Assembly: GCF_031760065.1 (NCBI RefSeq)
Contig: NZ_CP134500.1
Location: 5,146,001 to 5,210,000, forward strand
Reading direction: 5' to 3'
Source of the DNA: Streptomyces durocortorensis
GTDB lineage: Bacteria; Actinomycetota; Actinomycetes; Streptomycetales; Streptomycetaceae
Length of the DNA stretch: 64,000 nucleotides
Below the pieces are notes generated by a model. That model saw only the letters and a program-made list of their open reading frames with translations. It made no database searches and was not told the origin of the DNA. Shown here in pieces: positions 43,692-56,397 of this stretch. Made by a program: the position numbers and the translations under genes. Numbering within the stretch: position 1 is the first letter of the stretch; every line of letters begins with the position of its first letter.

Positions 43692-44666
43692 TCAGAGCCA
43701 CCCCTCCTTGACGGCCCGCACCCCCGCTTCGAACCGGCTGCGCGCGCCGAGCCGGTCCCGCAGCTCCGAGCTCATCCGGCGTACGGTCCGCAGGGAGATC
43801 CCGAGCCGCCGGGCGGCGAGGTCGTCGGTGCAGCCGATGCCGAGCAGCATGAGCAACTCCCGCTCCCGCGGGGAGAGGTCGTGCTCGTCGCGACGCGGTG
43901 CCTCGCCGAAGGGGGTGCCCGTGTCCCAGAGCTGGTCGAAGAGGACCACGAGTGCGTGCACGAGGCCGGGGCTGCGGACTTCGAGGGCGCCGGCGCGCCC
44001 CTCCTCCGGGTCGACCGGGACGAGCGCGGCCTCACGGTCGACGATCACCATGAGCATGGGGACCACGGGCACGGTCCGCGCCTCGCCGCCGAGGTCGCAG
44101 TACCAGCGGACGTAGTCGACGGTCGGGGGGTCGTTGCGAAAGCTGTCCTGGTAGATCGAGCGTATCCGCACCCCGCGTTCCAGGCAGAGTTGGTCGAGCG
44201 GCTGGCTCGCGTCCATCGTGTCGGGCAGCTGCGCCCCGCCCGGGAGCAGGGAGAGGCATTCGGTGCGGGCGTTCGCGGCGAGGTCCTCCAGGCGCCGGCG
44301 GACGGTCTCCAGGCCCACCACCCGGTGCACCACGTCGTGGCGGGCGGAGCGGTCGGGGCGCGCGGCGAGGATGTCGGCCACCGCCCGCTCGGCGCGTTCG
44401 ACCTGGCGGCGACGGCGGCTCAGTTCGCCCTCGGCGCGCGAGAGGAGGAAGGAGAACCCGACTTCGGGATCGAACGGCAGGATCTCCCCGGAATCGTCCT
44501 CCATGGAGATGAGTCGCGCCTCTGTGAGCCGGCCCAGTTCCTCGCGGACCCGTTGCTCGGTCCAGCCGAGTCGGCGGGCCATGTCCGCCACCCCGTAATC
44601 GGGCCGTTCGAGCATGAGCCGATAGACGATCTCGGCGGACTGTGCTATTCCCAGCGCCTCCAGCAA
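43692..44666 (-). CDS. TrmB/LuxR-type transcriptional regulator
   Basis: 324 residues. An N-terminal TrmB-like winged helix (about 1-60, YGVADMARRLGWTEQRVREEL) joins a central sensing part and a C-terminal LuxR helix-turn-helix (about 262-322, LSPRERELLMLLGIGCTDDLAARRLGISLRTVRRMS). Streptomyces has many such one-component regulators. It is divergent from an aldo/keto reductase, with two DasR-type operators between. Confidence 0.85.
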   Translation of the reverse strand: MLEALGIAQSAEIVYRLMLERPDYGVADMARRLGWTEQRVREELGRLTEARLISMEDDSGEILPFDPEVGFSFLLSRAEGELSRRRRQVERAERAVADILAARPDRSARHDVVHRVVGLETVRRRLEDLAANARTECLSLLPGGAQLPDTMDASQPLDQLCLERGVRIRSIYQDSFRNDPPTVDYVRWYCDLGGEARTVPVVPMLMVIVDREAALVPVDPEEGRAGALEVRSPGLVHALVVLFDQLWDTGTPFGEAPRRDEHDLSPRERELLMLLGIGCTDDLAARRLGISLRTVRRMSSELRDRLGARSRFEAGVRAVKEGWL

Positions 44667-44895: not shown

Positions 44896-45828
44896 ATGGC
44901 GATCCCGCAGCGCACCCTCATACTCGGCGCCCTGCCGTTCGGTACGACCGTCGACGAGGCCACCTCGTTCGCCGTGCTCGACCGCTTCACCGAACTGGGC
45001 GGCACCGTGATCGACACCGCCAACAACTACGCGTACTGGGCCGAAGGGGGCACCGGGGACGAGAGCGAGGAGACCGTCGGCCGCTGGCTCGCCGCGCGCG
45101 GCGGCCGCGACGGCCTGGTCCTCTCCACCAAGTGCGGCGGCAGGCCCGCCGCCCCCGGCTCCCCGGACGTCGAGGGGCTCTCCGAGAAGGCGGTCAGGAG
45201 CGCCCTGGAGGGCAGCCTGCGCCGGCTCGGCGTCGACCGGGTCGACGTCTTCTGGGCCCACCTGGAGGACCGCACGGTCCCGCTCGGCGAGACCGTCGCG
45301 GCCCTGGCCGACCTCGTCGACGAGGGGAAGGCCGCCGAACTCGGCGTCAGCAACCACGCCGTCTGGCGCGTCGAGCGCGCCCGCGCCCTCGCCGGAGAGC
45401 GCCCGCGCTACACCCACCTCCAGTACCGACACTCCTACCTCCAGCCCCGCTTCGACAAGGCCCTCCCCTCGTCGGGACACGTCCATGTCACCCGGGAGAT
45501 CCTCGACTTCGCGCGAAACGGGGGCGACCTCACGCTGTGGGCGTACAGCGCGCTGCTCTCCGGCGGCTACACCCGCCCCGAGGTGGGGATACCCGCCGCG
45601 TACGACCACCCCGGCACCGCCCCGAGGCTCGCGGCGCTGCGCGAGGTCGCCGGAGAGCTCGGCGCGAGCGTCAATCAGGTGGTGCTGGCCTGGCTCCTCG
45701 ACGGCGAACCGTCCGTACTGCCCGTCGTCGGGGCGAGCCGGGTCGAGCAGGTGGAGGAGGCCATGGGGGCGCTCGACCTCACCCTCGACCCGGAGCAGCG
45801 GCGCCGACTGGACGAGGCGGGCGCCTGA
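44896..45828 (+). CDS. Aldo/keto reductase
   Basis: 310 residues. Catalytic tetrad visible: Asp and Tyr in DTANNYAYW, Lys in STKCGG, His in FWAHLED. YSALLSGGYT and a late VLPVVGASRVEQVEE bind NADPH. AGAAGGA precedes ATG 44896. Substrate unknown; the dre-like sites hint at an aminosugar-linked role. Confidence 0.9.
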   Translation: MAIPQRTLILGALPFGTTVDEATSFAVLDRFTELGGTVIDTANNYAYWAEGGTGDESEETVGRWLAARGGRDGLVLSTKCGGRPAAPGSPDVEGLSEKAVRSALEGSLRRLGVDRVDVFWAHLEDRTVPLGETVAALADLVDEGKAAELGVSNHAVWRVERARALAGERPRYTHLQYRHSYLQPRFDKALPSSGHVHVTREILDFARNGGDLTLWAYSALLSGGYTRPEVGIPAAYDHPGTAPRLAALREVAGELGASVNQVVLAWLLDGEPSVLPVVGASRVEQVEEAMGALDLTLDPEQRRRLDEAGA

Positions 45829-45933: not shown

Positions 45934-47094
45934 TCAGTCGGCCGGGGAGACCAGCATCTCCTGGCCCCTGTGGTCGGAGAGGCCGGACGCGGAGACCAGC
46001 GCGTAGCGGTGCACGCGCAGCCGTTCGTCGGTGAACGTCCAGTCCAGCCGCCACAGCGGCAGCCCCTCGCTGCCCCATGTGCCGGGAAGGAAGGACGAGC
46101 CGGCGGGCAGCGCGTCGCGGAACTCCCCCCGTAGCCCGTCCAGATCACCCATGGCCGGGGTCGTGTTGAAGTCGCCCGAGATGAGCAGCGGATGGGGGTT
46201 CGCACGCGCGTCGCGGAGCAGCGCCGCGTAGTGCTCCTTCCGGACGGCGTCGGTGTCGCGGACCACCCGGTAGAAGCCGGGACTCAGCCAGCTTCGCTCG
46301 ATGTCCAGCTGTACCGGGATGTGCACGTTGTAGAACGACAGCACCGTGCCGGCGACGTCCACGTCGGTGCGCAGCACCTTGTGCCACTCGAACCGTTCCC
46401 GCCAGGACGACGACGGGCCCGGCGGGCGGCCCGGCCCCACTTCGGGCGCGGCGACGACCGGGTACCGCGAGAGGGTGACCAGCTCCCCGCGCGCCACGAG
46501 GTGGTAGCCGGGGAACTCGGCGCGCAGCCGGTCGAGCCGGTCGATCTCCGTATGTCTGCCGTCCTCCCGGGTCAGGTGCTCCTGGAGCAGGTAGACGTCG
46601 GCGTCCTTGGACCGCAGATGGCGGTGGAACGCTGCCGGATCGTCGGTCGTGTCCCAGTAGAGCGTGTTCCACGAGAAGACCTTGAGCGCGCCCGCCGGGG
46701 CGGGGCCCGGGCCCCCGCCGGGTACCAGCGCCCCCCAGTGGAGCCCCGCCCTCCCCACCCCCGCCGCGAGCAGCACCGCGAGGACGGGGAGCAGCCACCG
46801 GCGGGCGCGCCGGGTGGCCACGGCGCCGGACAGGGCGATCAGCAGGGCGGGCACCGCGACGAAGGCCGGCGGGGGAGCGAGGTCCGGCAGCAGCCACAGC
46901 CACCACCGGCCGCTCAGCGCCTGTCCGAGGCCGAGGAAGAGCGTCCACGCGGCGGTGGCGCCGATGAGGAGACCGGTGGCACGCCGTCTACCGCGAGTGG
47001 CTGGAACCGGACGCGGAACGGGGGGCGGCGAGACGTTCGCAGAGGCGCTCCCGACGGTCTCGTCACGGGCGCCGGGGAGGGTTCGAGGACTCAC
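45934..47094 (-). CDS. Membrane-anchored EEP-family hydrolase (copy A)
   Basis: 386 residues. About three transmembrane helices between residues 40 and 125 precede an endonuclease/exonuclease/phosphatase domain: FSWNTLYW, YLLQEH, FYNVHI, ISGDFNTTP and SDHRG, a complete metal-dependent set. Such enzymes cleave phosphodiesters or phosphate esters; here the catalytic part probably lies outside the membrane. Start GTG 47094. It is divergent from the glycosyltransferase operon and a paralogue of the operon's last gene. Confidence 0.85.
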   Translation of the reverse strand: MSPRTLPGARDETVGSASANVSPPPVPRPVPATRGRRRATGLLIGATAAWTLFLGLGQALSGRWWLWLLPDLAPPPAFVAVPALLIALSGAVATRRARRWLLPVLAVLLAAGVGRAGLHWGALVPGGGPGPAPAGALKVFSWNTLYWDTTDDPAAFHRHLRSKDADVYLLQEHLTREDGRHTEIDRLDRLRAEFPGYHLVARGELVTLSRYPVVAAPEVGPGRPPGPSSSWRERFEWHKVLRTDVDVAGTVLSFYNVHIPVQLDIERSWLSPGFYRVVRDTDAVRKEHYAALLRDARANPHPLLISGDFNTTPAMGDLDGLRGEFRDALPAGSSFLPGTWGSEGLPLWRLDWTFTDERLRVHRYALVSASGLSDHRGQEMLVSPAD

Positions 47095-47104
47095 GCCCCG
47101 GAAC

Positions 47105-47145
47105 GCTAACAGCTCTCAACTTCCTTTTTTCCAAGGCTTGTTAGC
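47105..47145. promoter_or_regulatory. Inverted repeat in the divergent promoter of the glycosyltransferase operon
   Basis: GCTAACA (47105-47111) and TGTTAGC (47139-47145), perfect 7-base arms 34 bases apart centre to centre, flank an unusually T-rich stretch (CTTCCTTTTTTCC). A candidate operator. Confidence 0.35.
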
Positions 47146-47217
47146 CGTCTCAGACTGCGAGAAGACGCGATACGCGATCGATATGCCGTCAATACGAGGG
47201 CCCGATGTCCTCTTCCC

Positions 47218-48261
47218 ATGACGCGAACCGTGTCGGTCGTCATACCGGCCTACAACTCCTCACGCACCCTCGACGCCTGTCTGAGATCCGTCCATGCGCA
47301 GACCCACCCCGTCCACGAGGTCATCGTCGTCGACGACGGCAGCACCGACGGCACCGCCGAGATCGCCCGGAACCATCCGTGCGTCCTCATCGGAGGCGGG
47401 GGCAACCGCGGAGTCTCCGCGGCCCGGAACGCGGGAATCGCCGCCGCCACCGGCGACGTCCTCTTCTTCCTCGACTCCGACGAGGCGCTCACCCCGGACT
47501 CGGTGGCCAACGCCCTGGAGATCCTGCGCGACGATCCCTCCTGCGGCTGTGTGCACGGCGTCATCGCGCCCGAGCCGCTCTTCGACGACGGGCCCGTCGA
47601 GTGGTACAAGGTGCTGCACGCGTACTGGTGGCGCGCCCGGGGCGCCGGAGTGGTGGAGACCGCCTTCTTCGCCCAGGCGGCCGTCCCCCGCGAGGTCTTC
47701 GAGGTGCTCGGAGGCTTCGACGAGCGGCTGCGCGACTCGGAGGACCTGGAGTTCAGCGACCGGCTCGCCCCGCACTACCGCATCGTGCTCACCGAGAGGG
47801 TGATGGCCCGCCACGACGAGGAGCACCGGTTCGGTCCCCTCCTCTCGGAGACGTACCGCAGGGCCCTGCTCCTCGTGCCCGCCCTGCTCTCGGCCCGCCG
47901 CGGGGGCCGGAGCAACCTGACGGCCAACAGCCCGGCGTCGGTCCTCGCCGCGGCCCTGTGCCTCGGCTCCGTGCCGCTGCCGCCCTTGGCTCTCCTCCTG
48001 TCGTGGCCGGCTCCGGCCGTACCGGTCCTGTCGGCCCTCCCCGTCGCCGGGCTGCTCGCCTTCTGCCTGGCCAACCTCGGGCTGCTGCGCTTCGCGGCCC
48101 GGCGGCGAGGAGCCTCCTTCGTCCCCTTCTTCACCGGCGTCCACCTCGCCAACCACGCCGCGCTGCTGGCCGGTGCCGCGAGTGGCGCCGTCCGCGCCCT
48201 CACGGCCGGCCGGACCGCCACCGGCGGCCGGCGGAGCTCCGAGCAGGCGGCGGCGCGATGA
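47218..48261 (+). CDS. Family 2 glycosyltransferase with C-terminal membrane helices (copy A)
   Basis: 347 residues. GT-A fold: VSVVIPAYNSSRTLDACLRS at the start, VDDGSTDGT, and the DxD-like FFLDSDEAL (about 80-88). GG(F)DE and RDSEDLEF follow, the acceptor-side acidic motif. Two or three hydrophobic segments (about 240-330) anchor it. It probably moves a sugar to a membrane-bound acceptor. ATGA overlap with the next gene. Confidence 0.88.
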   Translation: MTRTVSVVIPAYNSSRTLDACLRSVHAQTHPVHEVIVVDDGSTDGTAEIARNHPCVLIGGGGNRGVSAARNAGIAAATGDVLFFLDSDEALTPDSVANALEILRDDPSCGCVHGVIAPEPLFDDGPVEWYKVLHAYWWRARGAGVVETAFFAQAAVPREVFEVLGGFDERLRDSEDLEFSDRLAPHYRIVLTERVMARHDEEHRFGPLLSETYRRALLLVPALLSARRGGRSNLTANSPASVLAAALCLGSVPLPPLALLLSWPAPAVPVLSALPVAGLLAFCLANLGLLRFAARRRGASFVPFFTGVHLANHAALLAGAASGAVRALTAGRTATGGRRSSEQAAAR

Positions 48262-49355
48262 CCGTGTGGCTGCGCAGGCTCCTCACCCCGGTCGTCGTGG
48301 TGGCCGCGCTGGTCGGCGTGTTCTTCCTCGTCCGGGGCGAAGGACCCAAGGCGGTCGAGGCGTTCGCCCACGCCGACGCCGTTCCCCTGATCGTCGCCTC
48401 GGTCGTCGCCAACATCGGCGGACTGGTCCTCGCCGTGCACGCCTGGCGGGCCCTCATCCCCGGCGACCATCCCATCCGCGGCCTTCGCGCGGCGAAGATC
48501 TACTTCCTCGGCCAGCTGAGCAAGTACGTGCCCGGCAGAGTGTGGGGTGTCATCACCCATGTGGCGCACGGCCGAGAGGCCGGTGTGCCCGGCGCCCAGA
48601 TGACCTCCGCCTACGTCCTGAGCCTGGCGCTGACCCTGCTCACCGGAGCGGCGGTCGGGCTGGTCGCGGCGCCCGCCGCACTGCCCGGCCACTGGATGTG
48701 GCTGTGTCCGCCGGCGCTCTTCTTCCTCGCCGGGGTCGTACGGCCCTCCCTGATCACCCGGCCGGTCGTGGCCGCGGCCCGGCTGGTGAAGCGGCCCGTC
48801 GTACCACCGCCGGACGGTGCCGTCCGCAAGGCCGTGCTGCTCGCGATCGCCTCCTGGACCGCCTCCGGACTCCACCTGTGGTTCCTGCTCCTGGCGGTCG
48901 GAGCGCCGCCCCTCGCCGGACTCGGCGCGGCCGTCGGAGGCTTCGCCCTGGCCACCGTGATCAGCAGCCTGGCGCTGATCGTGCCCGACGGCTGGGGCGT
49001 GCGCGAGCTCACCCTCACCGCCGCCCTCTCCACCGTCCTTCCCGGCGGCCTGGCCGCCACCGCGGCGATCGCCAGCCGGCTGGTGTGCGTGGTCGCCGAA
49101 CTCGCCAGCTCGGCGGTGGTCCTGGCCTGGTCGCGAGCCAGGGACGCCAAAGCCGCCCGTGCCGCCCGTACCGCTGCCGGTGTCGCCGGGTCCGCCGCCG
49201 GGGCCGTCCCGGCAGCCGCAGGGCCCCGTGCCCCCGGTACCCCCCGCGTCCGCCGCGCCGGGCGGGCCCCCGACGCCCTGGCCTTCCCCGCCCCCCTCGT
49301 CCCCCCGATCCCCCCCACCGCCCCGATGGGAGAAGAAGCCCGTGTACACCCTTGA
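48258..49355 (+). CDS. AglD/LPG-synthase-like integral membrane protein (UPF0104 type)
   Basis: 365 residues with about eight transmembrane helices. The segment IYFLGQLSKYVPGRVWGV (about 77-94) and late VPDGWGVRELTLTAAL match the lysylphosphatidylglycerol-synthase TM region family. Relatives act as lipid flippases or in polyprenyl-linked glycan assembly. The last 70 residues are Ala/Pro-rich. It overlaps both neighbours, so it is translationally coupled. Confidence 0.85.
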   Translation: MTVWLRRLLTPVVVVAALVGVFFLVRGEGPKAVEAFAHADAVPLIVASVVANIGGLVLAVHAWRALIPGDHPIRGLRAAKIYFLGQLSKYVPGRVWGVITHVAHGREAGVPGAQMTSAYVLSLALTLLTGAAVGLVAAPAALPGHWMWLCPPALFFLAGVVRPSLITRPVVAAARLVKRPVVPPPDGAVRKAVLLAIASWTASGLHLWFLLLAVGAPPLAGLGAAVGGFALATVISSLALIVPDGWGVRELTLTAALSTVLPGGLAATAAIASRLVCVVAELASSAVVLAWSRARDAKAARAARTAAGVAGSAAGAVPAAAGPRAPGTPRVRRAGRAPDALAFPAPLVPPIPPTAPMGEEARVHP

Positions 49356-50742
49356 CGACGTCGAGAAGCTCCAGGTCGACGAGGTCCACGACCTCTACCG
49401 CCGCTACGTGAACAAGAGCCAGGTGTCCCTGATGACCTCGTTCGGCTTCGGCCGCGAGCTCGTCCGGAGCGCCGAGGGCGCCTATCTCACCCTCGACGAC
49501 GGCAGGCGAATACTCGACCTGACCGGCGGCGTGGGCGTCCTCAACCACGGCCACAACCATCCGCGCATCCTCGCCGCCCGCGAACGCTTCGCCCGCGACC
49601 GGCGCATGGAGGTGCACAAGACCTACTTCTCGCCCTACCTCGCGGCCCTCGGCCACAACCTGGCCGAGGTCCTGCCCGGCGACCTGAACATGGCCTTCCT
49701 GCCGAACTCGGGAGCCGAGGCGGTCGAGGGAGCGGTGAAGCTCGCGTACAAGTACCACAACGGCAAGCGGAACACGGTCCTGCGCGCCGACCGCGCCTTC
49801 CACGGCAAGCTGCTCGGCTCGGGCGGCCTGACCGGCCAGGCCCAGTTCGCCTTCCCCACCATCCCCGGCGTGGACACCTTCCGCTACGGGGACCTCGACT
49901 CCGTCCGCAGGGTCGTCGCCGCACACCGCGGCGACGTGTACGCCCTGCTCATCGAGCCGTTCAGCGCCTCCACCATCCAGTGGTGCTCGGAGGAGTTCCT
50001 GCGCGGCCTGCGCGAGATCTGCGACCGCGAGAAGATCGTGCTGATCTTCGACGAGATCTACACGGGGTGGGGGAAGACCGGCTCCCTCTTCCACTTCATG
50101 CGCTATCCGGGCCTGATCCCCGACGTGCTCACCACGTCCAAGTCCTTCGGCGGCGGCAAGTCCTCCATCTCCGCCTTCGTCGCCCGCGAGCCGGTCTTCC
50201 GCAAGGCGTACGACAGCCTCGGCGACGCCCTGCTCCAGTCCACGTCCACCACCTACTACGGCTTCGGCGAGGAGTGCGTCACCGCCCTCGAAGCCGTCAA
50301 CATCGCGATGGAGGACGACTATCCGGCGCGAGCCCGCGCACTCGGAGCCGTACTCGGACCCGGTCTCGAACGGCTCGCCGAGCAGTACCCCGACGCGATC
50401 GGCCGCGTGGCGGGTGCCGGTGCCCTGTGGGGCGTGTTCATCGAGGGCGGCCCACGGATCCTCGACCTCGTGGCGAAGCTCGCGCCCGGCGGGATGGCCA
50501 GGGACCCGCGGTTCAAGACGAAGGTCGTCACCTGCGCCGTGATCAACGCGCTCTACCAGGACCACGGCATCTTCACGTACTACACGCTCAACGGCGACAA
50601 CCCCCTTGTCATCGGCCCCTCTCTGGTCACCGAACCGGAGGAGGCCCAGCGCGTGGTCGACGCCCTCGACGACGTCCTCAGCCGCGGCCTGACCGGTCTC
50701 GTGGCCCGTTTCATCAAGCAGAAGGTGAGCTCCCAGTGGTGA
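49342..50742 (+). CDS. Class III pyridoxal-phosphate aminotransferase
   Basis: 466 residues. The cofactor loop LNHGHNHPRIL, NSGAEAVEGAVKLA, the Asp in IFDEIYTGWGKTG, and TTSKSFGGGK with the Schiff-base lysine are all present. Class III enzymes aminate aldehydes or ketones; HpnO, which makes aminohopanoids, is one lipid-directed relative. Substrate unknown. GTG 49342 is preceded by GGGAGAAG and overlaps the upstream gene by 14 bases. Confidence 0.9.
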   Translation: MYTLDDVEKLQVDEVHDLYRRYVNKSQVSLMTSFGFGRELVRSAEGAYLTLDDGRRILDLTGGVGVLNHGHNHPRILAARERFARDRRMEVHKTYFSPYLAALGHNLAEVLPGDLNMAFLPNSGAEAVEGAVKLAYKYHNGKRNTVLRADRAFHGKLLGSGGLTGQAQFAFPTIPGVDTFRYGDLDSVRRVVAAHRGDVYALLIEPFSASTIQWCSEEFLRGLREICDREKIVLIFDEIYTGWGKTGSLFHFMRYPGLIPDVLTTSKSFGGGKSSISAFVAREPVFRKAYDSLGDALLQSTSTTYYGFGEECVTALEAVNIAMEDDYPARARALGAVLGPGLERLAEQYPDAIGRVAGAGALWGVFIEGGPRILDLVAKLAPGGMARDPRFKTKVVTCAVINALYQDHGIFTYYTLNGDNPLVIGPSLVTEPEEAQRVVDALDDVLSRGLTGLVARFIKQKVSSQW

Positions 50743-51758
50743 TCACGATCACCGGCGCGGCCGGCATGCTCGGCTCCCGGCTGGCCGAACGGCTCCTCGC
50801 CGACGGCCACGAGGTACGGGGCGTCGACCTCAGACCCGGCCCCCTGGTCCTGCTCACCGGCGACATCCGCGACCGGGAGCTCATGGACCAGGCCCTGGAC
50901 GGGGCCGACGTCCTCGTCCACGCCGCGGCCGCCCTGCCCAGCTACCCCGACGAACAGATCCGCTCCATCATCGTCGGCGGGACCGAGAACGTCTTCGCGG
51001 CGGCCGGGGCCGCCGGCACCCCCCGCGTCGTGCACATCTCCTCGACCGCGGTCTACGGCCTGCCCACGATCGTGCCCACCCCCGAGGAGTACCCCCGCGA
51101 GCCGGTCGACACCTACAGCCGGGCCAAGGCCTCGGCCGAGGAGATCGCCGAGCGGTACCGGGCCGGGGGCATGTGCGTCCCCATCCTGCGGCCCAAGACC
51201 TTCGTCGGCCCCGGCCGCATGGGCCTGTTCTCGATGCTCTTCGAATGGGCCGAGGAAGGCCGCCACTTCCCCGTCCTCGGCAAGGGCGACGTACGCATCC
51301 AGATGTTCGCCGTCGACGACCTCGTCGACGCCGTCGTCACCGTCCTCACCGCACCCGACGAGGTCGCGAACGACACCTACAACCTCGCCGCGGCCGAGTT
51401 CGGCACCCTCCGCGAGGACTTCCAGGCGGTGCTCGACGCGGCGGGACACGGCAAGCGCGTCATCGGCCTGCCCGCGCGCCCCGCCCTGACCCTCCTCAAC
51501 GTCCTCCAGCGGGCCAAGCTCTCGCCGGTCTACGGCCGGCTCCTGCACAAGCTGATGGACGACTCCTACGTCAGCATCGACAAGGCCAAGGCGAAACTCG
51601 GCTTCTCCCCGCGCCTGTCGAACGCGGACGCCGTCCTGCGCACCTACGAGTGGTGGCGCACCGCCCGCCACACCGCCCCGGAGACGGGAGCCACCGGCCG
51701 CACCAGCCGCGACCCGTGGAGTCAGGGCCTGCTGTCCACCGCGAAGATCTTCTTCTGA
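50736..51758 (+). CDS. NAD-dependent extended SDR (epimerase/dehydratase-like)
   Basis: 340 residues. TGAAGMLGSRLAE (6-18) is the Rossmann loop. SSTAVYG and DTYSRAKASAE (YxxxK) form the active site. Members act on nucleotide sugars or 3-hydroxysteroids. A keto-sugar product would feed the preceding aminotransferase (inference). GTG 50736 overlaps the aminotransferase stop; GTG 50739 is the alternative. Confidence 0.88.
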   Translation: MVITITGAAGMLGSRLAERLLADGHEVRGVDLRPGPLVLLTGDIRDRELMDQALDGADVLVHAAAALPSYPDEQIRSIIVGGTENVFAAAGAAGTPRVVHISSTAVYGLPTIVPTPEEYPREPVDTYSRAKASAEEIAERYRAGGMCVPILRPKTFVGPGRMGLFSMLFEWAEEGRHFPVLGKGDVRIQMFAVDDLVDAVVTVLTAPDEVANDTYNLAAAEFGTLREDFQAVLDAAGHGKRVIGLPARPALTLLNVLQRAKLSPVYGRLLHKLMDDSYVSIDKAKAKLGFSPRLSNADAVLRTYEWWRTARHTAPETGATGRTSRDPWSQGLLSTAKIFF

Positions 51759-51769
51759 GAGGCCGTGCC

Positions 51770-52666
51770 ATGACCCAGCTCGCCGGACACACCAGCGCCC
51801 CGGCACCGGTACGGACAGGAAGGCTGCCCGCGCCGCTCGCCCTGCTCAGACCCGGTCAGTGGCCCAAGAACCTGCTCGTGGTGCCCCTGGCCCTGCTCGG
51901 CGGCGCCCCGGACGCGACGACGGCCGTCCGGGTCGCCGTCGCGCTCGGCGCCTTCGTCCTCGCCTCATCCCTCGTCTACGTCCTGAACGACATCGCCGAC
52001 GTGGAGCGGGACAAGCGGCACCCCGTCAAGCGTCACCGTCCCCTCGCCTCGGGGCAGATGAGCATGGCCTCGGCCGTGGCCACGGCCCTCGTGCTGGGCG
52101 CCCTGCTCGTCCCCGCCCTGCTGACCCTCGGGCCCGGGTCCGCCCTGATCATCCTGCTGTACCTCGCCGTGAACGGCGCCTACAGCTGGAAGCTCAAGCA
52201 CCTTCCCCTCCTCGACGTCTTCGTCGTGGCCGCCGGCTTCGTGCTCCGCCTGCTCGGCGGCTACGAGGCCGCCGAACGCCCGGTCGAGATGTGGCTGGTG
52301 CTGACCGTGCTGGCGTCCTGCCTGGTCCTGATCCTGGGCAAGCGGCGGCACGAGCTGAGCGTCTCCGGCACCGGGCACCGGCCGGCCCTCGTCGGCTACT
52401 CGGCCCACTTCCTCGACCTCGTCCTGGTCCTGTGCTCGGCCCTGAGCCTCTTCGGCTACCTGCTCTATCTGCGCACCGAGTCGGGGTTTGGACCGTACGC
52501 CCTGCTCACGGCCGTGTGCGCGCTCTTCGCCCTCTTCCGCTACCTCCAGATCGTGATCGTGGACGGCGGCGGGGGCGAGCCCGTCAAGACCCTCCTGCGT
52601 GACCGGGTCATGCTGGCCAACTCCGCCGTCTGGGGCGCGCTGCTGGTCCCGCACCTGGTCCTCTGA
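51770..52666 (+). CDS. UbiA-family prenyltransferase, decaprenyl-phosphate phosphoribosyltransferase-like
   Basis: 298 residues, about nine transmembrane helices. The first aspartate motif NDIADVERDKRHPVKRHRPL and the second SWKLKHLPLLDVFVVAAGF closely resemble DPPR synthase (mycobacterial Rv3806c), which transfers phosphoribose from PRPP to decaprenyl phosphate. A lipid-quinone role is less likely because the HPxKRxRPLASG motif is present. It lies 11 bases after the SDR. Confidence 0.88.
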   Translation: MTQLAGHTSAPAPVRTGRLPAPLALLRPGQWPKNLLVVPLALLGGAPDATTAVRVAVALGAFVLASSLVYVLNDIADVERDKRHPVKRHRPLASGQMSMASAVATALVLGALLVPALLTLGPGSALIILLYLAVNGAYSWKLKHLPLLDVFVVAAGFVLRLLGGYEAAERPVEMWLVLTVLASCLVLILGKRRHELSVSGTGHRPALVGYSAHFLDLVLVLCSALSLFGYLLYLRTESGFGPYALLTAVCALFALFRYLQIVIVDGGGGEPVKTLLRDRVMLANSAVWGALLVPHLVL

Positions 52667-52714
52667 CCCCCGCCCCGCCCCGCCTCAGCCCCTCCATCAC
52701 CGACGAGGAATCCC

Positions 52715-53722
52715 ATGTCAGCACCTCTCGTGTCGGTCGTCGTCCCGATGTACAACGACCGCCGGACCATCGACCTCTGCCTGCGTTCCATAGGTGAGCA
52801 GAGCTATCCCCACATCGAAGTGATCGTCGTCGACGACGCCAGCACCGACGGCTGCGCGGAGATCGCCGCCACCCACCCCGTCCAGCTCGTCCGCGTCCCG
52901 GAGAACGGCGGACCCGGCTCCTCCCGCAACGAAGGCGTCCGCCGCTCCAGGGGCGAGATCGTCTTCTTCCTGGACGCCGACCTGACCATGCACCCGGAGG
53001 CGGTCGCCGAGGCCGTCGCGCTGTTCGACGAGAACCCCTCGTACGGCGCGGTGTTCGGCATCCCCGACAAGGAGCCGCTGTTCGACGAGCCGCTCGTCGG
53101 CCAGTACCGCATCCTCCAGTACCACTACTGGCGCAAGAGCGCCGAAGGCCTGGTCAGCGGGGGCTTCTACGCGCTGGGCGCGGTCAGCAGGGCCGCCTTC
53201 ATGGAGGCCGGGTGGTTCAATACCGCGCTGCGGCAGACCGAGGAGATCGACCACGCGGAACGGCTGGCCGCCCGGCGGCCCATGCTGCTCACGTCCCGGA
53301 TCAGGGGCCGGCTGTCCGATGAGAGCCGGATGCGGCCCCTGCTGCGCAAGGCGTTCGTCCGCAGCCGGCTCCGGGTGCCGTTCTACTTCGACCGGGGCCG
53401 CGCCATGCAGGGCATGGAGACCGGCGGCCGTGCCGTCGCCTCCGCGCTGGGCGGCCTGGCCGTCGCGGCCCTGCCGTTCGGGTTCCTCCATCCGGCGGCC
53501 CTCCTGGTGCCGCTGGCCGCCCTCACCGGGTCCGTGGTCGCGGACCTCGGGCAGTACCGCTTCGCGCTCCGTGAGCGCGGTCCGCTCTTCACCGCGTTCT
53601 TCACCGGCGCGCACCTGCTGGTGAACGCGGCGGTCGTGGCGGGTCTCGCCGTCGGTCTCGCGCAGTACGCGGCGAGCCGGCGCTTCCGGCGCATGTACCA
53701 GCCGCAGGAGAGCCTGGCATGA
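52715..53722 (+). CDS. Family 2 glycosyltransferase with C-terminal membrane helices (copy B)
   Basis: 335 residues. Same build as copy A: VSVVVPMYNDRRTIDLCLRS, VDDASTDG, FFLDADLTM, and a matching C-terminal helix pair (FFTGAHLLVNAAVVAG against FFTGVHLANHAALLAG). It differs in the acceptor region (RQTEEIDHAERL). ATGA overlap with the next gene. Probably a second glycosylation step. Confidence 0.88.
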   Translation: MSAPLVSVVVPMYNDRRTIDLCLRSIGEQSYPHIEVIVVDDASTDGCAEIAATHPVQLVRVPENGGPGSSRNEGVRRSRGEIVFFLDADLTMHPEAVAEAVALFDENPSYGAVFGIPDKEPLFDEPLVGQYRILQYHYWRKSAEGLVSGGFYALGAVSRAAFMEAGWFNTALRQTEEIDHAERLAARRPMLLTSRIRGRLSDESRMRPLLRKAFVRSRLRVPFYFDRGRAMQGMETGGRAVASALGGLAVAALPFGFLHPAALLVPLAALTGSVVADLGQYRFALRERGPLFTAFFTGAHLLVNAAVVAGLAVGLAQYAASRRFRRMYQPQESLA

Positions 53723-54972
53723 CCGCGGGCAGCACACCGCCCGCGCACGCGGTGGATCCCGGGGACACCGCACCCGCCGGGGCAGTCGGAGGGGACAGGA
53801 CGGCCGGGGCGGCACGCGCGGCGGTGGCGGGGGAGGACCCCGGTCGTCCGCGCCGGATCGCCCGCCTCCTCAGGCTCTGGTACGGCAGGCTCGTCCTCGC
53901 CGTCGCGGCGCTGTGGCTGCTGTACGCCGTGACGCGGGTCCTGCTGAGCGACCGCTGGCACTGGTCCCTCGTCCTCGACGCCGTACCACCGCTCCTGCTG
54001 CTCGGTGTCCCCGCCGCCCTCCTGGTCGCGGCCGCCGGCGCGTGCGGCCGGCGCCGCCCCCTCGCGGCAGGCACGGCCGCCCTGGCCCTGGCGCTGGCCC
54101 TGACCACGGGCTCGGGCCTCAACTGGCCCGCCCTCTGGCGCGATCCCGGCCCGGTGCCGCGCGGCGCGCTGCGCGTGGTGTCGCTGAACACCCAGTACTG
54201 GGGGAAGGCGGCCGGTACCGACCGGCTCCGGGCCTTCCTGGGCGAGCATCCGGCCGACGTCTACCTGCTCCAGGAGCACGTCGCCTGGACCCCGGGCCTG
54301 GGGGAGGAGGGCTACGCACGGCTCGACGACGACGAGGCGCTGCGCCGGCAGTTCCCCGGCTACCACATCGCCCGCAGGGGCGAACTCCTCACCGTCTCGC
54401 GCTTCCCCGTCCTGTCGCAGACCTCCGTGGGCGTCCCTCCCGCCACCGACGGGAAGGACGACTTCGGCCGGGAGTTCCTGCGGGAGAAGGTGCTGCGGAC
54501 CGATCTCGCGGTCGGTGACCGGGTGCTCAGCACGTACAACGTGCACATCACCGTGCCCATGGCCTTGGACAACCTCAACCCCTTCTCGGAGTTCGACCAC
54601 GACGCCTACTTCCGCCGCAAGGACGCCTGGCGGCGGGAGGAGCTGCGCGGACTGGAACGGGACGTGGCGGCCAACCCCCACCCGTCGGTGATCGCCGGGG
54701 ACTTCAACACCACGGCCGCGAGCAGGGCGCTGGACGGGCTGCGCGCCACCGCCACGGACGCCACTCCGGTGAGCGGCGAGTTCCTCCCGCTGAGCTGGAA
54801 GTACGCCTCCCCGGGAGAGTTCTCCTTGGGAGGCGTACTCGACCGGCCCCTGCCGTTCTTCCGTCTGGACTGGGCCTTCACGGCAGGCGGGGCCGAGGCG
54901 CACCGGTACGAGTTCGTGCCGACCGACGGGCTGTCCGAGCACCGGATGCAGGACCTGTGGATCTCCTTCTGA
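53719..54972 (+). CDS. Membrane-anchored EEP-family hydrolase (copy B)
   Basis: 417 residues: a disordered N-terminus of about 45, two or three transmembrane helices (about 55-135), then an EEP domain with SLNTQYW, YLLQEH, YNVHI and IAGDFNTT. The last motif is SEHRMQ instead of SDHR, so Glu replaces the usual aspartate of the Asp-His pair. It shares FPGYH, GELLTVSRFPV and FRLDWAFT with copy A. It ends the operon. Confidence 0.85.
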   Translation: MTAGSTPPAHAVDPGDTAPAGAVGGDRTAGAARAAVAGEDPGRPRRIARLLRLWYGRLVLAVAALWLLYAVTRVLLSDRWHWSLVLDAVPPLLLLGVPAALLVAAAGACGRRRPLAAGTAALALALALTTGSGLNWPALWRDPGPVPRGALRVVSLNTQYWGKAAGTDRLRAFLGEHPADVYLLQEHVAWTPGLGEEGYARLDDDEALRRQFPGYHIARRGELLTVSRFPVLSQTSVGVPPATDGKDDFGREFLREKVLRTDLAVGDRVLSTYNVHITVPMALDNLNPFSEFDHDAYFRRKDAWRREELRGLERDVAANPHPSVIAGDFNTTAASRALDGLRATATDATPVSGEFLPLSWKYASPGEFSLGGVLDRPLPFFRLDWAFTAGGAEAHRYEFVPTDGLSEHRMQDLWISF

Positions 54973-55013
54973 GCCGTCCGGCGGGGGAGCGGGGCCGCCC
55001 GTGCCGGGGGCGG

Positions 55014-55763
55014 TCACGCGCTCAGGCACTCCCCGAGGAGGATGGACCGCTCCATCGCGCTGAGTTTCGGACCGGGCTCTATTCCCAGCTCCTCGACGAG
55101 GGTCAGACGGATGCGCCGGTACGCGGCCAGCGCCTCGGCCGTCCGGCCGGAGCGGTGCAGCGCCAGCATCAGCTGGGCGTGCAACCGCTCACGGAAGGGG
55201 TACGTCGACGTCAGGGCCATCAGCTCGCCGACGACGTCCTCGTGCCATCCGAGGTCCAGTTCGAGGCTGAGGCGTTCCTCGGTCGCCCGGATCCGCAGTT
55301 CTTCGAGGCGCCGGATACCCGGGTCGAGGGCCGGACTCGTCTGCCCGGCGAGCACGGGCCCGTTCCACAGGGCGAGCGCGTCGCGGAGCTCCAGCGCGGC
55401 CTCGGCCCTGCGGCCGTCGCCCGACAGCACGCGGGCGCGTTGCACGCGGCTCTCGAAGACGGCGGAGTCCAGGTCGTGGGGGCCGAGGCGGAGACGGTAG
55501 CCGTACGAGTGGGTCTCGATCAGCCCGGGTGCTCCGGCGGCGGCGAAGGCCCGGCGCAGCGTGGAGACGCAGATGCGGATCTGGGCACGGGCGCTGGCAG
55601 GGGGGTGGGGGCCCCAGACCGCTTCGACGAGGCCCTCGACCGAGACGGCCCAGTCGGCCTCCAGCGCGAGAGCGGCCAGGACGGTCTGCGTCCGTCTGCC
55701 CCCGAGGGGTACGGGGCGGTCGGTGACGGTGGCGTGGAGGGGGCCCAGGATATGGACGAACAC
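55014..55763 (-). CDS. SARP-family transcriptional activator (BTAD domain)
   Basis: 249 residues. Winged helix of the OmpR type at about 15-90 (ADWAVSVEGLVEAVWG, RICVSTLRRAFAAAG), then a BTAD domain (about 95-245, ERLHAQLMLALHRSGRTAEALAAYRR). SARPs activate secondary-metabolite clusters. It is convergent with the glycosyltransferase operon, 41 bases away. Confidence 0.92.
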   Translation of the reverse strand: MFVHILGPLHATVTDRPVPLGGRRTQTVLAALALEADWAVSVEGLVEAVWGPHPPASARAQIRICVSTLRRAFAAAGAPGLIETHSYGYRLRLGPHDLDSAVFESRVQRARVLSGDGRRAEAALELRDALALWNGPVLAGQTSPALDPGIRRLEELRIRATEERLSLELDLGWHEDVVGELMALTSTYPFRERLHAQLMLALHRSGRTAEALAAYRRIRLTLVEELGIEPGPKLSAMERSILLGECLSA

Positions 55764-55853
55764 GGCTGAATTCCCCGTTCACTTCTCTGTTCTCTCCGGT
55801 CGGCACGTCCTGTGCCGGACCGGCGGAGGGGTTGCGGGAGGGGTCGGGAGGTC

Positions 55854-56114
55854 TCACAGGAGTCTGCAGTCGGTGATGCCGTAGCCGCTGAACTCGGGGG
55901 AGTGCCCCAGCATGCGCAGGCAGATGCCCAGCGCGCGCCCGATGGCTTCCAGTTCGTCCGGGCAGTCGAGGCACAGTGCGATCCGGACGGAGCGGTCCCC
56001 GACCAGCGCGCGGGCGGTCTCGACGGGTTCCGTCGGCTCGATGGCCCGGTACAGCGCCGCCAGCACGCCGCTGGGGGTGGGGCGTTCGGGGTCCGCCGCG
56101 GCGGACGCGGACAT
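55854..56114 (-). CDS. Small protein of unknown function next to the SARP gene
   Basis: 86 residues from ATG 56112-56114. Soluble, with three cysteines (LCLDCPDELEAIGRALGICL, TDCRLL). No Shine-Dalgarno sequence is visible; the start could lie further upstream. 90 bases before the SARP start, same strand. No family recognised. Confidence 0.5.
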   Translation of the reverse strand: MSASAAADPERPTPSGVLAALYRAIEPTEPVETARALVGDRSVRIALCLDCPDELEAIGRALGICLRMLGHSPEFSGYGITDCRLL

Positions 56115-56184
56115 CGAGATGCCGATGAGGTAGATGGCGGGTCCTGCGGGGAGCGTGGTTCCGGCCGGGCGCGACGTGTGCCGG

Positions 56185-56397
56185 TCAGCCCCACGAGAAG
56201 CCGTCGGATGAGGCGGACGGCGTCGGTGTGGGCGCCGGGGCCTCAGCGGCCGCCGAGGTGGTGGCGACGACCCGCGACGGCGTGGTCGCGTCCGGGCCCG
56301 CCGTAGCGCCGGCGGACGGTCCGGCGGTGGCGAGCAGGGCGCAGAGGGCGGCGAGCGGGGCGGCGGCGAGGGCGAGACGGCGGGCGGAAGAGCGCAT
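56185..56397 (-). CDS. Small secreted Ala/Pro/Thr-rich protein
   Basis: 70 residues. A clear signal peptide (RSSARRLALAAAPLAALC, cleavage near AGA at about 31) leaves a mature part of only about 40 residues, rich in Pro, Ala, Thr and Ser, ending SSDGFSWG. AGAGG lies upstream of ATG 56397. Reading in the same direction as the SARP gene. Function unknown. Confidence 0.5.
   Translation of the reverse strand: MRSSARRLALAAAPLAALCALLATAGPSAGATAGPDATTPSRVVATTSAAAEAPAPTPTPSASSDGFSWG

Follow-up and report, generated by a model that had tools for sequence, protein, structure and literature searches.

A conserved actinobacterial gene cassette in Streptomyces durocortorensis with a possible role in building a polyprenyl-linked amino-pentose

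Lipid-linked pentoses made from phosphoribosyl pyrophosphate (PRPP) are known for arabinan and for ribofuranose and xylofuranose side chains. The mycobacterial decaprenyl-phospho-arabinose (DPA) pathway comprises the UbiA-family enzyme Rv3806c, the phosphatase Rv3807c, the DprE1/DprE2 pair and the exporter Rv3789. In the Arn pathway, a DegT-type enzyme aminates a uridine diphosphate (UDP)-sugar before transfer to lipid, and AglD of Haloferax is a family 2 glycosyltransferase (GT2) fused to an LPG_synthase_TM domain. The present analysis concerns a gene cluster between positions 45934 and 55763 of a stretch of 64,000 nucleotides of Streptomyces durocortorensis (contig NZ_CP134500.1, positions 5,146,001 to 5,210,000), the whole of which is referred to as the window. 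The cluster represents a cassette conserved in actinobacteria, which may build a polyprenyl-phosphate-linked amino-pentose.

Three-component pentofuranose addition systems have been described for Citrobacter youngae O1 and O2 (Kelly et al. 2024, PMC11127046). According to the available part of that paper, the O2 pathway begins with a UbiA-type polyprenyl phosphoribose synthase, and mutation showed a GalE-like short-chain dehydrogenase/reductase (SDR), ORF13, to be required if the side chains are to contain xylofuranose in place of ribofuranose. As far as described there, the formation of a keto-pentose on lipid by an SDR therefore has a precedent. No described system with the gene set of the window was found in the literature searched, in agreement with an earlier reading of the sequence alone (the sequence-only reading), which knew of none with this exact set.

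Core genes and their conservation

Seven genes lie on the forward strand between 47218 and 54972. They encode, in order, a GT2 with C-terminal membrane segments (GT2a, 47218–48261; Pfam Glycos_transf_2, NCBIfam, hydropathy and solved relatives), an AglD-like membrane protein that is a candidate flippase (48258–49355; Pfam LPG_synthase_TM), a class III aminotransferase (49342–50742, with the GTG at 49342 chosen as start; Pfam Aminotran_3), an extended SDR of the epimerase/dehydratase type (50739–51758; Pfam Epimerase, alignment and GalE-like solved relatives), a UbiA-family enzyme resembling decaprenyl-phosphoryl phosphoribose (DPPR) synthases (51770–52666; Pfam UbiA, NCBIfam, solved relatives, residues and tree), a second GT2, again with C-terminal membrane segments (GT2b, 52715–53722; Pfam, NCBIfam and hydropathy), and a membrane-anchored hydrolase of the endonuclease/exonuclease/phosphatase (EEP) type (EEP2, 53719–54972; Pfam, with motif and conserved-residue checks). 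The gaps from GT2a to EEP2 measure −4, −14, −4, 11, 48 and −4 bases, which bears out the earlier statement of overlaps or spacings of no more than 48 bases. Both flanking genes named at that time are present on the reverse strand: EEP1 at 45934–47094, with three membrane helices followed by an EEP hydrolase domain (Pfam Exo_endo_phos, AlphaFold2 and fold matches), and a Streptomyces antibiotic regulatory protein (SARP) at 55014–55763 (Pfam BTAD, 154 bits). The gene families as first named were likewise confirmed by Pfam and NCBIfam. All nine scanned proteins, EEP1 through SARP, exceeded the Pfam gathering score of their families; among the NCBIfam models shown for the core proteins, none reached its cut-off.

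A search for the same gene set across genomes, proposed along with the sequence-only reading, was made with the aminotransferase as query against one genome per species. It gave 129 encoding places, of which the best 80 were used. Sixty-eight of these are longer than 18 kb (long loci) and form the basis of most counts, from which the remaining 12, truncated by contig ends, were left out. The six core families, namely aminotransferase, SDR, UbiA, GT2, EEP and AglD-like protein, occur together in 65 of the 68 long loci and singly in 68, 68, 67, 67, 67 and 68 of them, respectively, a co-occurrence that rules out chance association. Incomplete sets were found in L108 (without UbiA), L116 (without GT2, with GT4 genes instead) and L125 (without EEP, at a contig end). 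The aminotransferase gene is directly followed by the SDR gene on the same strand in all 68 long loci, the gene order being otherwise variable.

Within Streptomyces, an aminotransferase of the wider family was detected at E ≤ 1e-150 in 36 of 295 genomes, the window's own included. Of the 35 other loci, 23 carry an enzyme of about 70–74% identity amid cluster genes (L023 is cut by a contig end and L034 has no GT2 match), and the remaining 12 one of about 57–60% identity in a different context. Phylum-wide, the enzyme was found at E ≤ 1e-80 in three of 396 genomes. The cassette is patchy yet conserved in actinobacteria. It had been called an accessory operon; the set is indeed present here, but it is no peculiarity of this strain.

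Properties of the core proteins

The NCBIfam models nearest to the window UbiA describe decaprenyl-phosphate phosphoribosyltransferases, each below its cut-off (183 of 207, 176 of 234 and 148 of 474 bits); a canonical Streptomyces UbiA (L187, 9285–10229) scored 422.5 of 207 bits as a DPPR synthase. The only solved relatives at E ≤ 0.001 were 8j8j and 8j8k. PMC10994848, in its available part, assigns 13 positions of Rv3806c to the binding of PRPP and lipid phosphate, and comparison of the active sites, as suggested beforehand, showed the window UbiA to be identical at 10 of these. Among 73 UbiA proteins of the cluster, Y70, N73, D77, K87, R90, Y138 and K191 are invariant, R22 and K28 are invariant where covered, and position 143 is occupied by K in 71 and by R in two. 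The window protein and 72 of the 73 share the cytoplasmic loop 1 signature NDxxDxxxDxxHPxK..RP.A.G.

The three differing positions in the window UbiA are Q135N, Y157F and K208P. In the 73 cluster proteins, Q135 is replaced by N (54), S (18) or T (1), Y157 by F in all 73 and K208 by P in 70. The same positions vary in 26 DPPR-synthase-like control proteins from other actinobacteria, with Q15/T7/N4 at the Q135 site, F21/Y5 at the Y157 site and K8/R7/S5/P3, among others, at the K208 site. Since 10 of the 13 positions are kept and the other three vary in the controls, a residue set incompatible with PRPP was not found, and the residues appear compatible with PRPP use. In a phylogenetic tree the cluster proteins formed one clade (38 rows) apart from 27 controls including Rv3806c, with support of 100/99 and with long-branch warnings.

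The nearest relatives of the aminotransferase in the PDB are class III enzymes of the putrescine type, and it fits none of the curated NCBIfam models shown. Its pyridoxal phosphate-lysine motif, TSKSFGGGK, is found in 76 of 80 loci. The SDR is extended and GalE-like, with a profile of solved relatives closest to the nucleotide-sugar epimerases and dehydratases. The window SDR contains the NAD-binding motif and YxxxK, which in the crudely called set are found in 58 (GxxGxxG, crude starts) and 78 (YxxxK) of 80 loci. Aminotransferase and SDR genes have overlapping ends in most of the 68 loci, 42 of them by 7 bases in crude gene calls which set the SDR start one codon early; such overlap, with adjacency on one strand, fits consecutive steps. 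In the aminotransferase tree, the cluster enzymes together with a related group were split from the genome's seven other class III enzymes (100/100). The related group formed one clade (95/100), and the cluster enzymes themselves were not resolved as a clade.

A second type of cluster, found in 12 Streptomyces loci (L038–L049), carries the related aminotransferase. These loci encode a GT2 resembling polyprenyl-phosphate-sugar synthases (11 of 12), a flavin adenine dinucleotide (FAD) oxidoreductase (11 of 12) and a glucose-methanol-choline (GMC) oxidoreductase (12 of 12). The one representative of this GT2 that was searched matched 5ekp (sll0501) at 1.6e-57 and ArnC (9hwj) at 5.8e-30. This second type could make another lipid-linked amino sugar, and the association of a related aminotransferase with a lipid-linked sugar synthase and an oxidoreductase supports the amination of a lipid-linked sugar in the main cluster.

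Hydropathy places membrane segments at the C-termini of GT2a and GT2b, and the best matches of GT2a are not of the dolichol-phosphate-mannose-synthase type. GT2 and AglD-like domain are joined in one protein (family F37) in six of the 68 long loci, so the two probably act together. The AlphaFold2 model of EEP1 (mean predicted local distance difference test score, pLDDT, 90.4) has three N-terminal helices followed by the EEP domain, in which E172, D308, N310 and H375 are invariant. Over 30 aligned rows, the mean number of K+R residues was 2.8 before helix 1, 0.9 between helices 1 and 2, 4.1 between helices 2 and 3 and 0.5 after helix 3, a distribution from which the hydrolase domain is predicted to lie outside the membrane. 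As the core lacks a cytoplasmic 5'-phosphatase and the EEP domain is predicted to face outward, dephosphorylation need not precede oxidation and amination.

Proposed pathway and alternatives

It is proposed, with confidence somewhat short of even, that the cassette builds a polyprenyl-phosphate-linked amino-pentose, either as a glycolipid or as a donor. This is the simplest model that uses every core gene, and it builds on the established gene set, linkage, conservation, active-site residues and predicted topology. From these we infer all substrates, the step order, which carbon carries the amino group and what becomes of the product. UbiA would transfer 5-phosphoribose from PRPP to polyprenyl phosphate at the inner leaflet. 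The GalE-like SDR would then oxidise a ring hydroxyl of the lipid-linked ribose, at C2 or C3 or, less likely, at C5 after dephosphorylation, and the class III aminotransferase would trap the carbonyl, giving a lipid-linked amino-pentose. Where present, the aldo/keto reductase, an accessory member of the set encoded here at 44896–45828 on the forward strand (Pfam Aldo_ket_red, 180 bits; family F06), may reduce an intermediate. Further sugars would be added by the two GT2 enzymes on the cytoplasmic side, the AglD-like protein would flip the lipid to the outer leaflet, and the EEP enzymes, outside the membrane, would either release the 5-phosphate or break the lipid phosphodiester bond.

Several points weigh against this pathway. 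The window UbiA falls under every NCBIfam cut-off for DPPR synthases, and the Actinokineospora locus L108 (21 kb) has the aminotransferase, SDR, GT2s, EEP and a GT2-AglD fusion and no UbiA. Class III aminotransferases mostly use terminal aldehydes or amino-acid-like ketones, and amination of the ring would need a ketone at C2 or C3; the substrate of the aminotransferase and SDR could be a different metabolite. In the SDR, a conserved, hydrophobic C-terminal tail has a helical moment no better than that of a quarter of shuffles. The count of GT2 motifs fails for many copies (FLDxD-type in 80 and [ST]E[DE] in 111 of 164), so activity need not be alike in every GT2 copy. Fold matches of the EEP proteins do not tell a phosphatase from a diesterase or nuclease. 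A GT-C transferase was absent from the nine window proteins scanned with Pfam. In favour of the pathway, eight of the 68 long loci include GT87, a family that uses polyprenyl-phospho-sugar donors outside the membrane.

Regulation and accessory genes could point to another product, a specialised metabolite secreted in soluble form (a nucleoside-like compound or an oligosaccharide of amino-pentose) that would be assembled on the lipid carrier, freed by the EEP and governed by antibiotic-type regulators. Regulators of the SARP, LuxR or two-component type were found in 65 of the 68 long loci (families F07 and F13 labelled by Pfam, F17, F21, F26 and F42 by eye), EEP in 67, and the accessory genes are variable: methyltransferases (11 and 10 loci), a polysaccharide deacetylase (11), GT4 (17) and GT87 (8). 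The core is without an exporter, however, cleavage by the EEP is only proposed, and regulation like that of specialised metabolism is compatible with an envelope glycolipid too. This explanation is considered unlikely, though deserving of weight.

It is doubtful that the UbiA makes plain polyprenyl-phospho-ribose or phosphoribose as one donor and that the amino sugar added by the GT2s is a soluble compound produced separately by SDR and aminotransferase, giving a ribose-decorated aminoglycan. The nucleotide-sugar profile of the SDR, the resemblance of the GT2s to users of nucleoside diphosphate (NDP)-sugars and the retention of aminotransferase and SDR without UbiA in L108 would fit such a division. 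On the other hand, the linkage of aminotransferase, SDR and UbiA is otherwise near-constant, DegT-type enzymes usually serve as the aminotransferases in NDP-sugar pathways, and the related aminotransferase group is also accompanied by a polyprenyl-phosphate sugar synthase.

The relation to DprE1/DprE2 was assessed in the genus. In many Streptomyces, DprE2 and DprE1 lie between trpS and yihY, divergent from a gene set that includes a UbiA; in both of the scanned canonical loci, the neighbours of this UbiA are PAP2 and GtrA proteins, whose roles would be filled by the EEP and the AglD-like protein in the cluster. The genome of the window encodes both DprE1 (509 of 500 bits) and DprE2 (380 of 250 bits), and no other convincing DPPR synthase was found in it. 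Its DprE2/DprE1 genes stand at the trpS-yihY site without a neighbouring UbiA (L172, 12200–14437; C1, 4644199–4646436); at the same site elsewhere in Streptomyces, a UbiA lies between DprE1 and yihY. Forty-six Streptomyces genomes were compared, the window's included, 23 with and 23 without the cluster, DprE1 being scored at E ≤ 1e-100. With the cluster, six have a canonical-type UbiA and DprE1, 12 DprE1 only (the window's genome among them) and five neither. Without it, eight have both (on different contigs in G008), one the UbiA only, five DprE1 only and nine neither. The cluster therefore neither replaces nor requires DprE1/DprE2. As a side observation, one Streptomyces genome that lacks both DprE1 and the cluster has a DPPR-type UbiA (L194, G060), and no reference gene was matched nearby.

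These counts bear on the idea that the cluster UbiA feeds DprE1/DprE2 elsewhere in the genome, as a displaced part of the DPA pathway. The situation in the window's genome suits it, and of the 31 genomes (among the 46) that have no second DPPR-type UbiA, 12 of the 17 with the cluster and five of the 14 lacking it encode DprE1 (Fisher p = 0.076). It is nevertheless improbable: five of the 23 cluster-bearing genomes have no DprE1 and six also have a canonical DPPR synthase, DprE1 occurs with no UbiA found in five of the 23 that lack the cluster, and the aminotransferase and SDR would be left unexplained. The separate existence of canonical loci, the six genomes with both and the five without DprE1 indicate that the cluster is a diverged parallel pathway. 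That the UbiA does not use PRPP at all and prenylates an amino-alcohol or an aromatic compound made by SDR and aminotransferase is very improbable, as its scores below the DPPR cut-offs, its own clade and its changes at Q135 and K208 are offset by the PRPP-binding residues of Rv3806c that are otherwise kept and by variation of the changed positions in the controls.

Should the amino-pentose pathway hold, PRPP-derived lipid-linked pentose chemistry would be extended to amino sugars, which would point to a secreted product, or a charged component of the envelope, hitherto unrecognised in common soil actinomycetes. It is conceivable, though on balance we doubt it, that this is the first pathway to oxidise and transaminate ribose on polyprenyl phosphate, leading to a positively charged glycolipid or cell-surface glycan, with the related aminotransferase cluster (synthase plus GMC oxidoreductase) as a second version for another sugar. 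The cassette provides concrete enzymes for asking whether sugars are aminated on a lipid carrier. Where a canonical DprE1/UbiA locus coexists with it in Streptomyces, two diverged phosphoribose-lipid pathways can be compared in one cell.

Genomic setting and comparison with described pathways

To the left, the cluster extends slightly beyond the border drawn in the sequence-only reading, of which the seven-gene core stands: the aldo/keto reductase is matched in 45 of the 68 long loci (F06 in 74 of 116 loci), and next to it lies a LuxR-type (GerE) regulator gene at 43692–44666 on the reverse strand (Pfam GerE, 27.6 bits), of family F07, which occurs in 29 of the 68. It starts with TTG at 44666; in a shorter call the end is 44504. 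On the other side, a small protein of 86 residues without a Pfam match is encoded at 55854–56114 on the reverse strand, its family (F18) being present in 10 of the 68 long loci. Micromonospora loci L081, L092, L106 and L118 carry extra genes recognised by eye only, for an AMP-binding-like protein, another UbiA-like protein and a small protein resembling S-adenosylmethionine decarboxylase.

The cluster is situated between nrdA and a dasR-like gene, named DasR by inference from its GntR-UTRA domain beside a sugar transporter and from what we take to be the usual gene order. This interval measures 16.1 kb in the window and 2.8–6.8 kb in 12 sampled Streptomyces listed without the aminotransferase. 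Neither cluster genes nor the aldo/keto reductase or LuxR-type gene lie between nrdA and dasR in any of these 12; cstA does in six, and at the nearest such site (L160, dasR 96% identical) it lies about 0.3 kb from dasR. The short empty site agrees with the insertion postulated earlier, but a dasR-like gene adjoins the cluster in 22 of the 68 long loci, in differing arrangements, so the site is old or recurrent and repeated loss is as good a reading as gain.

The refuting pathways named with the sequence-only reading, teichoic acid and hopanoid synthesis, were not encountered, the SDR reaching 79.1 of 367.65 bits for HpnA and GT2a and GT2b 35.6 and 39.4 of 379.25 bits for HpnB, below the cut-off. 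With Haloferax AglD the cluster shares a GT2 adjoining an LPG_synthase_TM domain, fused as mentioned in six of 68 loci, but it is bacterial, includes a UbiA and an aminotransferase, and its GT2a is, by best matches, of another type than dolichol-phosphate-mannose synthase. The product of the Arn pathway, an amino-pentose on polyprenyl phosphate, would be like that of the cluster; unlike Arn, the cluster aminotransferase is of class III (Aminotran_3) and the lipid-linked sugar would derive from PRPP.

The Citrobacter O2 system, as far as the available text of its description goes, is alike in combining a UbiA-type enzyme with a GalE-like SDR, ORF13 there setting the identity of the lipid-linked pentose, on which the cluster SDR may likewise act. 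The cluster differs from the Citrobacter systems, within the same limits of that text, in having an aminotransferase after the SDR and in lacking a HAD phosphatase domain, a MATE flippase and a GT-C transferase (GT136); GT87 was found in eight of 68 related loci, vs no MATE or GT-C among the nine window proteins.

The DPA pathway and the canonical Streptomyces loci (L184–L193) share with the cluster a DPPR-synthase-like UbiA with a hydrolase and a flippase candidate nearby and, for the cluster by inference, redox enzymes acting on a lipid-linked pentose. DprE1, DprE2, PAP2 and GtrA are absent from the nine cluster proteins scanned; in their place stand the extended SDR, the class III aminotransferase, the membrane EEPs, the AglD-like protein and the GT2s. 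The cluster UbiA constitutes a clade separate from the canonical one, and both coexist in six of 23 genomes. As a locus the cluster belongs to neither the DPA nor the three-component pathways, and it resembles both at the first step; it would be a variation on the route by which mycobacteria obtain arabinose for their cell walls.

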